Shown here: one piece after another, positions 1 to 4,394 of the stretch
How the letters are laid out: every line of letters begins with the position of its first letter
Numbering within the stretch: position 1 is the stretch's first letter
Position numbers and translations under genes: made by a program
The notes under the pieces: generated by a model
What the model saw: only the letters and a program-made list of their open reading frames with translations
Database searches by the model: none
Told to the model about the DNA's origin: nothing
Virus record (IMG/VR): IMGVR_UViG_3300021963_000481
Span: 1-29,595 of that record
Direction: 5' to 3' (one strand)
Length of the DNA stretch: 29,595 nt
Source: a virus

Positions 1-423
1 TGCCCAGCTGATCGTAATCGATTGGGCTTGAGGCGCGTCCTCACGCTTGTCTCGGATGCCATGCGGCTGTGACCGTGCCAGCGTCCAGCGCAGCGTTTCG
101 ATCTCCAGCTTGCGCCGTTGGATCTCGGCGCCAAGCCACCTGCTGTCGCATGGCGTACCGTCTGCGTGGTGTGTTGGCAGTGGTGATGTTGCCAGGGTGT
201 TGATGCGATCTGAGTGCCATTCGGCCTGGCGCACGCGTCCTTCGCGGTAGAGGCGGAAGAACTCTTCATCACGCATGACGGCTGATGTGATGGCGCGATA
301 TGACGGCATGTGATCGCTTTCGACAATTTGCAGCAGGTTCTCGCCTTGCCCCATGCGGTCAGCGACTTCGACCATGATGGCCTTTGTGACTCTGACCGAA
401 TGGCCTTTATTGTTTCCGCCCAT
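1..423 (-). CDS. Terminase small subunit-like protein (partial, C-terminus off the left edge)
   Basis: The visible 141 residues look like a terminase small subunit, the protein that recognises packaging sites on phage DNA and recruits the large terminase. An N-terminal helical, HTH-like part (about 12-50) is followed by FFRLYREGRVRQAEWHSDRI (59-78), and then RWLGAEIQRRKLEIETLRW (95-113). This resembles the pattern in TerS-like proteins in which an Arg/Ala-rich helix precedes a segment ending near a DKR-type motif (here IRDKRED). The start is well supported: AAAGGAGG lies six bases upstream of the ATG. The gene overlaps the preceding HTH gene by 17 bp, so it ends the replication operon. The large terminase would be expected just beyond the left edge. 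The assignment is from motif style, not a search. Confidence 0.72.
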   Translation of the reverse strand, partial: MGGNNKGHSVRVTKAIMVEVADRMGQGENLLQIVESDHMPSYRAITSAVMRDEEFFRLYREGRVRQAEWHSDRINTLATSPLPTHHADGTPCDSRWLGAEIQRRKLEIETLRWTLARSQPHGIRDKREDAPQAQSITISWA

Positions 424-670
424 TGCGACCTCCTTTGGGTTTTGCTGAGTGTACACCAGACTGCCCATCAGTCCAAGAGTTTGCGGGGATCTCGCCCAGT
501 GTCATCATCTGGATGACCATGCGTTCGTTCTCATCGGGCATTTGATAGCTGGTGTGATCTGGGTGCATGCACCATTTGCAGATCATGCCAGGCGTACTGA
601 TGCCCATGCGCTTTTGCATGTCGTCGTATGATAGGCCTCTGTCCAGGCGCCAGCGTTCAAGTCTGTTCAT
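407..670 (-). CDS. Small HTH (Cro/XRE-like) protein
   Basis: This 87-residue protein opens with LERWRLDRGLSYDDMQKRMG, the layout of a lambda-type helix-turn-helix (helices about residues 3-34), followed by a polar tail rich in Gly, Lys and Arg. It is probably a DNA-binding regulator, possibly of the packaging genes that follow. The start at 670 is preferred over the upstream ATG at 718 because its ATG forms an ATGA overlap with the stop of the gene before it. Its own 3' end overlaps the terminase small-subunit start by 17 bp. The operator it would bind is not identifiable. Confidence 0.6.
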   Translation of the reverse strand: MNRLERWRLDRGLSYDDMQKRMGISTPGMICKWCMHPDHTSYQMPDENERMVIQMMTLGEIPANSWTDGQSGVHSAKPKGGRNGRKQ

Positions 671-843
671 GTTTTGAGATCCACTGTGTTGAGGATTTGC
701 CTGATGAAGTTCAGGCATGCGGTTGCTGGCAGTTTGCCGATCTCTGTTCCGTTCTGCCAGACGTAGACGCCATCGGGTCTTGTGGTGAGGATGACGGCTG
801 TATCTGTTTTGATGATTGGCTCATGCTCACCAAGGAATGTCAT
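667..843 (-). CDS. Hypothetical protein, 58 aa
   Basis: A small protein of unknown function (58 residues). It reads as a compact beta-rich N-terminal half (DTAVILTTRPDGVYVWQNG, residues 14-32) followed by a helix (ATACLNFIRQILNTV). The start at 843 is chosen because it lies within the last codons of the upstream gene (17-bp overlap) with a GGAG element before it, and its stop overlaps the next start as ATGA. That tight coupling is the main evidence that it is real. No membrane segment, cysteine pattern or known motif is visible. Confidence 0.55.
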   Translation of the reverse strand: MTFLGEHEPIIKTDTAVILTTRPDGVYVWQNGTEIGKLPATACLNFIRQILNTVDLKT

Positions 844-1408
844 CTTCCAGCTCCATGTTTCTGACGGCTGTGACTTCTGCACCAGGGAATGCAGCCTTGG
901 CTGCGTCGATCATTTCTTTGGCGAGGCTGCGTCGGTACATGGTGAGAGCCAGGACCATCTCACGCTCGGTGATCAGCTCCAGTTTCGGATAAGCTTCTTG
1001 CGCTCTCTGCCACGCTCTGGGATCTCTCATCAGGCCGAAGGTATAACCATCTGCCTCAACAACCCACACCTGCGCTGTAGGCGGCTCTCCGTGAGCCTGC
1101 GAGGCAATTTGATCCATGGCCTGCATGCCGCGTATGCAGACCGATGCTCTGACTGCCACGTCATCAGGATCTTGTTCATCGATCGCCTGGTTGAGCTTGG
1201 CCATTGCCGATCCATACTTTGCCGCGACATCAGCCGGCACCAGCTCCACGAGCCGATCAATGCCCCACTTGTGATCCATCGCATTTGCCATGCGATCGAA
1301 CGGGGCGAGTGCGAAGTCACATTTGATTTGCACCGCCGTGACATCCCGATGCAGGACACGATCAGCGCTTCGCTGTCTGCGCGGTTTGGTTGGTCTATGC
1401 TCAGTCAT
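827..1408 (-). CDS. Replication-module protein with an SSB-like acidic tip (EDDIPW)
   Basis: A 193-residue protein of unrecognised family. The N-terminus is basic (PTKPRRQRSADR), the middle is helical, and the last residues are MELEDDIPW. The end closely resembles the DDDIPF tip that bacterial SSB proteins use to recruit partners. The body does not look like a classical SSB. Its place directly downstream of the primase-helicase suggests a DNA replication or recombination role, but this is inference. The ATG at 1408 is preferred over the GTG at 1420 because GGAG sits six bases before it. The gene begins just after the TAGGA-rich intergenic region, and its end is overlapped by the next gene. 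Confidence 0.62.
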   Translation of the reverse strand: MTEHRPTKPRRQRSADRVLHRDVTAVQIKCDFALAPFDRMANAMDHKWGIDRLVELVPADVAAKYGSAMAKLNQAIDEQDPDDVAVRASVCIRGMQAMDQIASQAHGEPPTAQVWVVEADGYTFGLMRDPRAWQRAQEAYPKLELITEREMVLALTMYRRSLAKEMIDAAKAAFPGAEVTAVRNMELEDDIPW

Positions 1409-1431
1409 CTTGGTCTCCACTTTTTCGGGGC

Positions 1432-1572
1432 TTGTAGGAATTAGGAAACCCTAAAGGGTTTTCCTAATCCTCCTACAAAATTGCCCGTGTGTAGGATTTA
1501 CTTAGGAATTTGTAGGAATTGTAGGAAACGCCGCCCCAACCCGTTGATTTCATTGCGTTCGGTTTTCCTACA
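1432..1572. repeat. TAGGA repeat cluster with a long hairpin; candidate replication origin
   Basis: The 168-bp gap between two leftward genes contains nine copies of TAGGA or its complement (1435, 1442, 1462, 1471, 1492, 1503, 1513, 1522, 1566). Four direct copies between 1492 and 1526 are spaced 9-11 bp apart, close to one helical turn. Two TTGTAGGAA units lie back to back at 1510-1518 and 1519-1527. Copies at 1432-1478 form an imperfect inverted repeat: arms TTGTAGGA with TCCTACAA and ATTAGGAAA with TTTCCTAAT, closed by CCCTAAAGGG. The stretch is AT-richer than its surroundings. Iterons plus a hairpin beside a primase-helicase gene are typical of an origin. An operator cluster is the alternative. 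Neither strand shows a T-tract after the hairpin. Confidence 0.6.
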
Positions 1573-1576
1573 GCGT

Positions 1577-3667
1577 TCATACACGGCCCTCTTTTGCCGA
1601 CACCCACAGATAGCCCTCGTTTTGGGTCATATAGCCGCTCAAAAGCAGGCCTTCGAGCGCCTGTTTGTACCCGGCTCTGGGGTTTGCGCCTGCCAGTTTG
1701 CCCTGTGCAAACTTTGCAAAGTCTGCCTCATCGATGGCCCAATAGGTGTGGATCTCTGGCCATCCCACGCCGCCTGGGTTCTTCATTCCGATGCCGTCGT
1801 CTCTCATCTGCTTGAAGGCTTGCACCAGTGCGATCTGGTTTCTGCCTGTTGGCTTCTTCTTTTTGCTGTCTTCGACATCCTGGTCGTTGGCTTGTTCGAT
1901 GGTGCAGGTGGTGACCTGGTCACCGTCTGCGTCGAGGCCGAGTTCGTGTACTTTGAGCTGGAAGGTAATTGGCTTTTTGGGTTCGAGGTCGCGTTGTTTG
2001 GTCGCTGTTGCGGTTCGGATGGTGCCGTTGAGTTCCAGTTCGATCTCTGTGTCGGTTGCGGCTCTGAGGCTGCTGTGTCCTCTGGCGCCTTGTGCTGCGT
2101 CTTTGCCTGTGTGGTGAACGATCAGGACGTGCGCACCTGTGAAGTCTCTGAGTGCGTCGAGGTTATTGATGAAGGCTGTCATGTCGCTTGGCCCGTTCTC
2201 GTCACCGCCTGACATGGCTCGGCTGAGTGTGTCCACGACGATCATGGCCAGCTTGCCGTATTGCTGTTCGATCTGCTGACACAGTGCGCCCAGCTCGGGC
2301 ATGTCTGCCTCTGGGTGCAGCAGATCCACCGGGCTGGCTCTGACGGCCAGCGGCACGTTTGTGCTGCCGTGCTTTTGTGTGAGTGCGAAGACCCTGTTCT
2401 TGAAAGCGTGGCCGCCTTCTGTTGCCAGGTACAGGACCGGGCCGCCGTTGATCTTGCTGCCCTGCCACTCCATGCCGGCTGCCACATGGTATGCCAGATC
2501 CAGCACGATGAATGATTTGCCGACGTTGGATGGACCGTACACCACCGACATCTGCCCAGCGCCGAGCCAGCCTTTGACCAGGTAGCTTTGTGTTAGGACG
2601 GGCTGTGCGTCGGCGGCCCAGAAGATCTGCGCCGGTGGCTTGGTTGGCTTTGGCGCTGCGTCAAACTCTGTCTGGTGTGTCTGCAGCGCTTGCTGTGGCG
2701 TGATCTCTGGCTGCGGTGTCCAGCCCTTGGCCCTGGCGCCATCGATCGCCTGCTGCACCTCTCTGCGTGTGTCCTCGGCGGTGTATCCTGCCATGGTGAA
2801 GCGATCAGTGAGGGCGTGGATCTCTGCGTCTGTGAGACCTTTGCTGACGTATGAGGCGACCAGGCGGATGACGTTCTGGTGCCAGTTGTCGCCTTGCAGG
2901 ATGGAGGCCTCTGCCATGGCTCGGTCCATGGCTTGCTGGCCCAGGTCGATCTGGATGGTGGCGACGCTGGTTGTGGCTGTTGAGAGGCTGCGCTGTGTGG
3001 GCGGGAAGGCCCGCATGAGCCGATCGAACGGCACCGGATCTCGGTCGGATGAGAACTCTGTGCGCATTGTGACTTGCTCTTGGATGTAGCCACGGCTCTT
3101 CTTGTCGTCGTTCGGGTAGCTGATCGTGCCGGCCACGCGCATGATGCGGGATGGGTTGATGACAACTGGATCTGTGCCGAGGCTGGCAGCGATGCTGGCC
3201 TGCACCTGGCGCCAGGCGTCCAGGTTGTAGCACGGCTCTTCCAGCTGCCAGTATGCGTGGCCTCTGACGTATGGCGTAGTGCCTGTCTTGACCGACATCG
3301 TGAACTTCGGGCCTGCGAAGGACAGCACGTTGGCCATAGATCCGTCTGTGTCTGCGTCGGCAAAGCAGTAGAAGGCGGCCAGGATGTCTTTGTCGGTGGC
3401 GGCTTTGTTCGGCGGGATGCTGATCCGCCCATCGATCGGGTTGATGCACATGTAGATGTTCTGGCTGTGCTGGTTCATGGCGGCTGCATGCTGCACGGCA
3501 TCTTCGGCCTGGTGCAGGGGGAAGCGTGCCACGCTGACTTGCCGATTGGTGCCGATGCAGCGCAGCTCGATGGCTGCAGGCTCGGCCAGCTCTGACCACC
3601 CCTGCGTAATGTATTGAATGAATTGCCTGATTTGCTCAGGATTTGATTGCATCTGTTGGCTCTGCAT
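1577..3667 (-). CDS. Primase-helicase fusion (RepB-like primase plus RepA-like ATPase)
   Basis: From the start at 3667 this is 696 residues. The N-terminal third looks like an archaeo-eukaryotic-type primase: an acidic FADADTDG motif (about 102-109, candidate metal ligands), GHAYWQL (136-142) and a NPSRIMRVAGTISYPN motif (171-186). The C-terminal half is a RecA-fold ATPase of the RepA/AAA_25 type: Walker A GPSNVGKS (378-385), Walker B IVVDTLSR (476-483), and HHTGKD with RGHSSLRAATD near 518-539. It would unwind DNA and make primers at the phage fork. GAGGG lies nine bases before the ATG at 3667; an upstream ATG at 3712 lies within a terminator-like hairpin and is unlikely. A short C-terminal helical region resembles a winged-helix tail. 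The fusion gives the phage its own replication initiator. Confidence 0.85.
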   Translation of the reverse strand: MQSQQMQSNPEQIRQFIQYITQGWSELAEPAAIELRCIGTNRQVSVARFPLHQAEDAVQHAAAMNQHSQNIYMCINPIDGRISIPPNKAATDKDILAAFYCFADADTDGSMANVLSFAGPKFTMSVKTGTTPYVRGHAYWQLEEPCYNLDAWRQVQASIAASLGTDPVVINPSRIMRVAGTISYPNDDKKSRGYIQEQVTMRTEFSSDRDPVPFDRLMRAFPPTQRSLSTATTSVATIQIDLGQQAMDRAMAEASILQGDNWHQNVIRLVASYVSKGLTDAEIHALTDRFTMAGYTAEDTRREVQQAIDGARAKGWTPQPEITPQQALQTHQTEFDAAPKPTKPPAQIFWAADAQPVLTQSYLVKGWLGAGQMSVVYGPSNVGKSFIVLDLAYHVAAGMEWQGSKINGGPVLYLATEGGHAFKNRVFALTQKHGSTNVPLAVRASPVDLLHPEADMPELGALCQQIEQQYGKLAMIVVDTLSRAMSGGDENGPSDMTAFINNLDALRDFTGAHVLIVHHTGKDAAQGARGHSSLRAATDTEIELELNGTIRTATATKQRDLEPKKPITFQLKVHELGLDADGDQVTTCTIEQANDQDVEDSKKKKPTGRNQIALVQAFKQMRDDGIGMKNPGGVGWPEIHTYWAIDEADFAKFAQGKLAGANPRAGYKQALEGLLLSGYMTQNEGYLWVSAKEGRV

Positions 3668-3714
3668 TCTATTGTCCCTCACGAGGTTACCGCCTCTTCT
3701 ATCTCGCCTCAACT

Positions 3715-3752
3715 ATCCCCCAGCGCGTCTCCTCGCTGGGGGATTTTTCTTT
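3715..3752 (+). terminator. Intrinsic terminator facing right, antisense to the operon
   Basis: A perfect 11-bp stem, ATCCCCCAGCG (3715-3725) with CGCTGGGGGAT (3734-3744), closes an 8-nt loop. It is followed on the plus strand by TTTTCTTT. On the minus strand, along which both flanking genes run, an A-tract precedes the hairpin and no T-tract follows. It should therefore stop rightward, not leftward, transcription. In the leftward mRNA it could act as a stabilising or processing hairpin between the SSB and primase-helicase genes. Confidence 0.75.
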
Positions 3753-3758
3753 GTGTGA

Positions 3759-4394
3759 TCAGAACTCAAAGTCACCGGCTGCTGCGGCTGCCGGAGCTGG
3801 CGGTGCAACAGGCGCCGGTGCTGCGACCGGTGCAGGCGCAGGTGCAGGGGCCAGGGCGATGCCAGCGGCTGCGCCGTCTTTCAGGCAATCGGGACGCGGC
3901 ACCCACTTAATGACTTCCAGCACCGGGCTGATGGTCGATCCGCGCTTGAACTGCATGGCCTTGGTGGATGCCAAGCGCACGAGCGGGAGCTGGCCGGGTG
4001 CCGGTTGCTGCTGCAGCTGCGGGGCCAAATCTGTGAGGGCTTGCCATGCGGCTGTGCCTGCTTGCTCCCAGGTTGCGGTGGCCCCGCCGCCGGTTGCGAC
4101 CGGAATGCTGAAGCCTTTCTTCCAATCCTCACCGGGCTGGGCCATCATCTGCGCGGGGCTTGGGTTCCACTTCCATTCCGGCGCCACGCCTGCGATGCCT
4201 TCGGACTTCTGCCAGCCGGTCTTCATCTTTTCAATGTCGAGGACCATGCCTTTGCTTGCGTCGTATGCGGTTTTGTCGCTGCCGTCGCGGATGTAAAACG
4301 ACTTGGCGTTGATCGCGCCGTCTTGCGTGCCGCGTGCGGACCACTGCAGGAAGGGACCGTTGGCGCCGTTGCCGCCTGTGTCGAGAGAGAACAT
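3759..4394 (-). CDS. Probable single-stranded DNA-binding protein
   Basis: A 211-residue protein. Residues 1-160 are a mixed fold in which FLQWSARGTQDGAINAKSFY suggests an OB-type start. It then has a long Ala/Pro linker (roughly 175-205) and ends in GDFEF, an acidic aromatic tip. A globular domain, flexible linker and acidic-aromatic tail is the architecture of SSBs and of T7 gp2.5-like proteins, in which the tail contacts replication partners. It lies between the exonuclease and primase-helicase genes. AAAGG sits seven bases before the ATG. The function is inferred from architecture and context; the OB fold itself cannot be proved by eye. Confidence 0.65.
   Translation of the reverse strand: MFSLDTGGNGANGPFLQWSARGTQDGAINAKSFYIRDGSDKTAYDASKGMVLDIEKMKTGWQKSEGIAGVAPEWKWNPSPAQMMAQPGEDWKKGFSIPVATGGGATATWEQAGTAAWQALTDLAPQLQQQPAPGQLPLVRLASTKAMQFKRGSTISPVLEVIKWVPRPDCLKDGAAAGIALAPAPAPAPVAAPAPVAPPAPAAAAAGDFEF

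Follow-up and report, generated by a model that had tools for sequence, protein, structure and literature searches.

What is the function of the 168-bp gap (1409–1576) that separates a primase-helicase gene from its neighbour in the viral record IMGVR_UViG_3300021963_000481, and which protein reads the repeats inside it? The gap is bordered by the stop codon of the primase-helicase (1577–3712, minus strand, an ORF of 711 aa) and by the ATG at 1408 of an ORF encoding a 193-aa protein (827–1408, minus strand). The whole stretch analysed, 29,595 bases, is referred to as the window. A previous sequence-only reading considered a replication origin or an operator and suggested either of the two flanking proteins as the binder. 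Of these proposals, the comparisons described here best support a phage replication origin made up of iterons plus a hairpin. We regard it as quite probable that the gap is a cis-acting iteron origin of the phage, recognised by the adjacent primase-helicase itself.

Repeats and hairpin within the gap

TAGGA or its complement TCCTA occurs nine times within 136 bp (1435–1570), with starts at 1435, 1442, 1462, 1471, 1492, 1503, 1513, 1522 and 1566, and ten further times across the remaining ~29.4 kb of the record. This position list and 200 dinucleotide shuffles of the record, in which the clustering reached at most 4 for TAGGA and at most 7 for any 5-mer, confirm the nine copies noticed earlier. 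The coordinates and spacings given at that time were right, but the chance figure of 0.3 was too high. With ~18.5 copies expected per whole record, the value is nearer 0.085 per 136 bp. All six occurrences of the 7-mer TCCTACA in the 29,595 bases fall inside the gap. Four copies described as 9–11 bp apart are indeed spaced by exactly 11, 10 and 9 bp across 1492–1522, and two exact copies of TTGTAGGAA at 1510 and 1519 form the expected tandem pair.

On the plus strand, an outer iteron TTGTAGGAA (1432–1440), which lies beyond the palindrome in the gene-strand sense, is followed by an inner iteron TTAGGAA (1441–1447) forming a palindrome arm and by the central palindrome CCCTAAAGGG (1449–1458; CCCTTTAGGG on the gene strand). 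Two inverted iterons on the minus strand come next (1460–1468 and 1471–1478, reading TTTCCTAAT and TCCTACAA on the plus strand). The direct run, again on the plus strand, consists of TGTAGGA (1490–1496), which is the fourth repeat in gene-strand order, a degenerate TTAGGAA (1502–1508) and the tandem copies of TTGTAGGAA (1510–1518 and 1519–1527). An outlying inverted iteron on the minus strand (1566–1572, TCCTACA on the plus strand) adjoins the primase-helicase stop codon. Clustered short repeats at helical-turn spacing, as in an iteron-type origin, are hence located beside the gene of the proposed initiator. The gap has a G+C content of 45%, compared with 57% for the record, which places it in the top 1.7% of 168-bp windows by A+T content.

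The imperfect inverted repeat at 1432–1478, with arms of ~20 bp around the central palindrome, is real. Folded as single-stranded DNA, positions 1430–1480 yield −14.5/−15.5 kcal/mol with z −6.1 on either strand, and no shuffle equalled this value. An IHF-like element, AATCAACGGGTTG (WATCAANNNNTTR), is located at 1537–1549 on the minus strand. The exact consensus is present in 24% of 67 related gaps and in 1% of shuffles, and IHF may bind at this element. The sequence-only reading had also suggested looking for a change of GC skew at 1409–1576. Over the record there is no clear turn at this position and the skew is confounded by gene strand; therefore, GC skew was dropped as origin evidence.

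Conserved layout and exchangeable repeat words

Relatives were taken from viral contigs and reduced to 131 distinct helicase loci, and the DNA 3' of the helicase stop codon was read. Aligned as plain sequence, the repeats of the gap fail to align across types, so that the layout alone is comparable. This layout is conserved. Directly 3' of the helicase stop codon, 57 of the 69 loci with a RepA-type (clade A) helicase show the orientation run >>>(>)<<>(>), i.e. three to four direct repeats 9–12 bp apart, two inverted repeats, the central palindrome and one or two direct repeats. Six of the 12 non-conforming loci are the window and its close kin, whose array is alike by eye; they fall outside the 57 because degenerate copies are miscounted by a one-mismatch scan of one 7-mer. 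Typical clade A spacings are near-constant (9–10, 10–11, 10–12, 19–23, 9, 17–22 and 7–8 bp), even for words as unlike as CTACAAA, GTATAAA, TAGGACA, TGTAGAA and CGTACCA. More than 12 words, assigned to classes by hand and differing between lineages, occupy this fixed layout (TCCTACA, TCATACA, TGTAGAA, GTGTAAA, CTACAAA, GTATAAA, TAGGACA, ATGTGAA, CGTACCA, ATACCAA, GGAGGAA and others). The conservation expected for TAGGA in related phages thus holds for spacing and orientation, but TAGGA itself is replaced wholesale by other words.

A CCTWWAGG-type palindrome (CCTTTAGG/CCTATAGG) is found in 47 of 64 non-redundant RepA-type arrays, in contrast to 1.6% of shuffles. A second helicase clade (clade B) has analogous arrays of GGTGAGGAA, GGTGTGGAA, AACTGTGGA or AAGTGTGGA. 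In bacterial genomes, 28 of 73 loci with a helicase of this type repeat a single 7-mer five times or more within the 530 bp at and after the helicase stop codon, compared with two in the coding control, and the CCTWWAGG palindrome occurs in 16 of the 24 such repeat-bearing loci inspected. Longer CCGGACA/CGGGACA-like arrays follow RepA-type helicases in several bacterial loci (L209, L215, L220, L232, L237 and others), which are probably prophages or islands.

Where a gene is inserted 3' of the helicase, the array mostly remains just before the gene of the 193-aa protein. Loci with such an extra gene include L018, L031, L033, L042, L046 and L061, among others, and the array was beside the 193-aa gene where examined; in L018 and L061 the start of the inserted gene resembles PAPS reductase by eye. 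In L110 and L114, four copies were found in the first 800 bases 3' of the helicase stop codon and their arrangement looks disrupted; other sequence, including a strong G+C-rich hairpin, precedes the 193-aa gene. Two words one base apart are mixed in L009, L013, L158 and L161 (CATAC/CCTAC or TCGG/TAGG), perhaps as transitional states.

The primase-helicase as candidate reader of the iterons

The only Pfam match of the primase-helicase is AAA_25 (E 1e-39), and in PHROG it falls with the phage DNA polymerase/primase and helicase-primase families. Its RecA-fold helicase domain (2096–2620, minus strand) is of the RSF1010 RepA type. RSF1010 RepA structures are its best matches (1g8y, E 3.7e-11), and 1g8y is also the top row of the structure comparison (Z 21.3, rmsd 2.5, 214 residues). 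The N-terminal region has no Pfam match up to E 1; hence, the primase label rests on PHROGs and on motif resemblance by eye. The C-terminal ~115 residues are predicted to contain a winged helix, since AlphaFold2 models residues 624–711 (1580–1843, minus strand) in this way with a block pLDDT of ~83–94, using the window and viral contigs as alignment rows. The modelled recognition helix comprises residues 678–691 (1640–1681, minus strand). The corresponding clade B model is poor outside the C-terminus. The VIA-align rows, which reached ~residue 275/360 of the model and span the helicase part, contained no solved structure related to the winged-helix domain; this absence is therefore not evidence for a new fold.

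The closest isolates by helicase are the Roseobacter phages CRP-811, 821, 822, 823 and 831. CRP-821 and CRP-831 carry the word TTTATACAA, CRP-823 and CRP-811 the word TTTGTAGTA. The last ~115 residues of the primase-helicase are 98–99% identical within a word type and 69–70% between the types. For the remainder of the protein, the values are 89–90% within and 89–97% between types, i.e. the N-terminal part is unlinked to the word. Overall, the CRP-821 and CRP-823 proteins share 93% identity and their differences concentrate at the C-terminal end. The same is seen in the DNA of this pair, where an identity of mostly 90–98% falls to 52–83% over the stretch encoding the C-terminal end plus the array, before rising again at the gene that follows. 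A natural swap is found in L110, L088 and L109, which keep the 193-aa protein (87–91%) and the N-terminal region (71–72%) and have a different helicase half together with iterons GGTGAGGAA. As judged from these comparisons, the C-terminal domain and the array are exchanged together as one cassette.

Within this domain, residues 680, 683 and 684 covary most with the hand-assigned word class (partial r 0.37, 0.32 and 0.29, with helicase-core identity controlled). In the AlphaFold2 model they form one face (i, i+3, i+4) of helix 678–691. In clade B, all 14 GAGG arrays go with Gln at residue 722, which lies in the modelled wing, and none of the 25 TGTG arrays does. On the clade B tree, five changes of residue 722 and word are needed; three pairs are on well-supported branches, all of them in step, which are too few independent changes for a significant sign test. 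Moreover, the covariation partly reflects cassette exchange, so that single residues remain causal candidates. In L013 the recognition helix is identical to that of the window, yet the array mixes CATAC and CCTAC, which counts against the proposed explanation.

Three other proteins were rejected as determinants of specificity. The 193-aa protein has a basic N-terminus and no family match or assigned function, and is conserved across many such replication modules. It changes little in the natural swap, where the helicase half and the repeats both differ, and follows the word weakly in the isolates; it is a linked gene. The SSB is 96–99% identical across both repeat types, and the PD-(D/E)XK nuclease does not track the repeat type. 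Of the two binders suggested before, the comparison consequently favours the primase-helicase, specifically its C-terminal domain, and speaks against the 193-aa protein.

Proposed origin, competing functions and known systems

We propose that the winged-helix domain at the C-terminus recognises the iterons by their sequence, and that the direct run, the inverted pair and the palindrome would position the helicase rings, possibly assisted by a bend at the IHF-like element. The A+T-rich or palindromic centre would then open, the RepA-type helicase would load itself and the N-terminal region would prime; synthesis would then pass to a replicative polymerase, supplied by the host or the phage. As one cassette, domain and array would set the replicon specificity. 

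Alternatively, the repeats might be repressor or activator sites through which downstream genes are controlled, the autoregulator being either the 193-aa protein or the helicase. We consider this unlikely. The array is situated directly upstream of the 193-aa start codon and stays beside this gene when another gene follows the helicase. However, dozens of clade A loci without a detectable 193-aa homologue still have it downstream of the helicase, which weakens the operator interpretation, and the 193-aa protein remains 87–91% identical although the iterons change completely. About nine repeats with a helical-turn run and a central palindrome are, in addition, elaborate for an operator. Plasmid iterons often autoregulate too, and operator function could be a secondary role. 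Of the two functions left open by the sequence-only reading, the origin is supported by the conserved layout.

Slightly less probable still is that the initiator binds here to a site for copy control (like P4 crr) or partition (like a centromere), while the true origin is located elsewhere. In P4, ori and crr both have the same iterons and are bound by alpha. A second array was not seen in the three genomes counted, since the array words are nearly confined to the gap in the window, whose record looks incomplete, in CRP-821 (TTTATAC, ten in the gap and two elsewhere) and in CRP-823 (TTTGTAG, 11 and two). A recombination or packaging site, attP- or cos-like, is highly improbable. It would comprise the repeats, the IHF-like site and the palindrome, and attP and cos likewise have an IHF-like site between repeats. 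Against it, a tyrosine-recombinase or integrase match is absent from the window record, and in the CRP records ~3–4 kb, counted over the circular junction, separate the gap from the terminase genes. CRP-821 and CRP-823, moreover, have TerL proteins of 99.6% identity despite their differing repeats. An RNA element transcribed from the region between the two genes, whether an attenuator, a terminator or another structured RNA, would fit the strong hairpin, but it is the least probable of all, since Rfam gave no match in positions 1–4000 of the window and the repeats outside the hairpin switch word along with those inside, which pairing within the hairpin leaves unexplained.

For the origin reading, several known systems provide parallels. 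P4 alpha combines origin binding, helicase and priming in one protein and acts with short iterons; one-protein replication and short iterons are shared with the proposed initiator. The primase of P4 alpha is of the TOPRIM type (PMC4234260), whereas the primase region of the window has no Pfam match, and one array was seen here.

SaPI Rep works through its C-terminal domain on iterons that lie immediately 3' of the gene encoding it, and the C-terminal domain of Cch2 from SCCmec binds downstream direct repeats (PMC7581432). An initiator helicase with its array directly 3' of its own gene is thus a parallel to the window, for which covariation suggests reading by the C-terminal domain as well; SaPI5 Rep additionally has a fused primase, much as proposed for the window. 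The helicases differ: they are DUF927 or Primase_Cterm/D5_N in SaPI Rep and Cch2, and AAA_25/RepA with a RecA fold in the window. A palindrome-centred fixed layout with many interchangeable words was not described in the accessible part of that source.

The helicase acting at RSF1010 oriV is RepA, and replication there involves the three tasks proposed for the window protein, namely iteron reading, unwinding and priming (PMC4234260). In RSF1010 they are divided among three separate proteins, RepA, RepB' and RepC, and hairpins serve priming; here, one polypeptide would combine them, with its C-terminal domain as the iteron reader. ORF904 of the crenarchaeal plasmid pRN1 likewise joins primase and helicase, carries a winged helix at its C-terminus and has its origin immediately 3' of the gene; unlike the window, it has an SF3 helicase and a large stem-loop without iterons (PMC4234260). 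The mode of action is best read as resembling that of SaPI Rep/ori or P4 alpha, but with a helicase of the RSF1010 RepA type to which a primase-like region and a putative domain for reading the iterons are joined.

With middling confidence we extend this to a widespread class of phage and prophage replicons, in which one protein would combine priming, RepA-type unwinding and iteron reading. The C-terminal domain and array would form an exchangeable cassette with a readable correspondence between amino acids and iterons across more than 12 words, and the conserved central palindrome may be the opening or priming site. Among the open-access papers searched, none was found to describe such an array, which by itself does not establish novelty; the main text of the CRP phage paper contains none of the terms repeat, intergenic or primase. 

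These loci represent a natural series of initiator–origin pairs with constant layout and changing specificity. The series includes cultured Roseobacter phages on one host strain, FZCC0197 in the case of CRP-821 and CRP-823, that are sharply unlike in the proposed reading domain and the array, so that origin recognition by a self-reading replicative helicase is directly testable with matched pairs. It may account for replicon compatibility among co-infecting marine phages, and it offers a sequence-only route to origins in phages with a RepA-type helicase.

The window itself is probably a fragment of a T7-like podovirus, given that it encodes a tail tubular protein, an internal virion protein and a tail spike. 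In the CRP phage records, by comparison, a tape measure protein and a tail terminator are annotated. The replication module of this podovirus-like record is akin to that of the siphovirus-like CRP phages.
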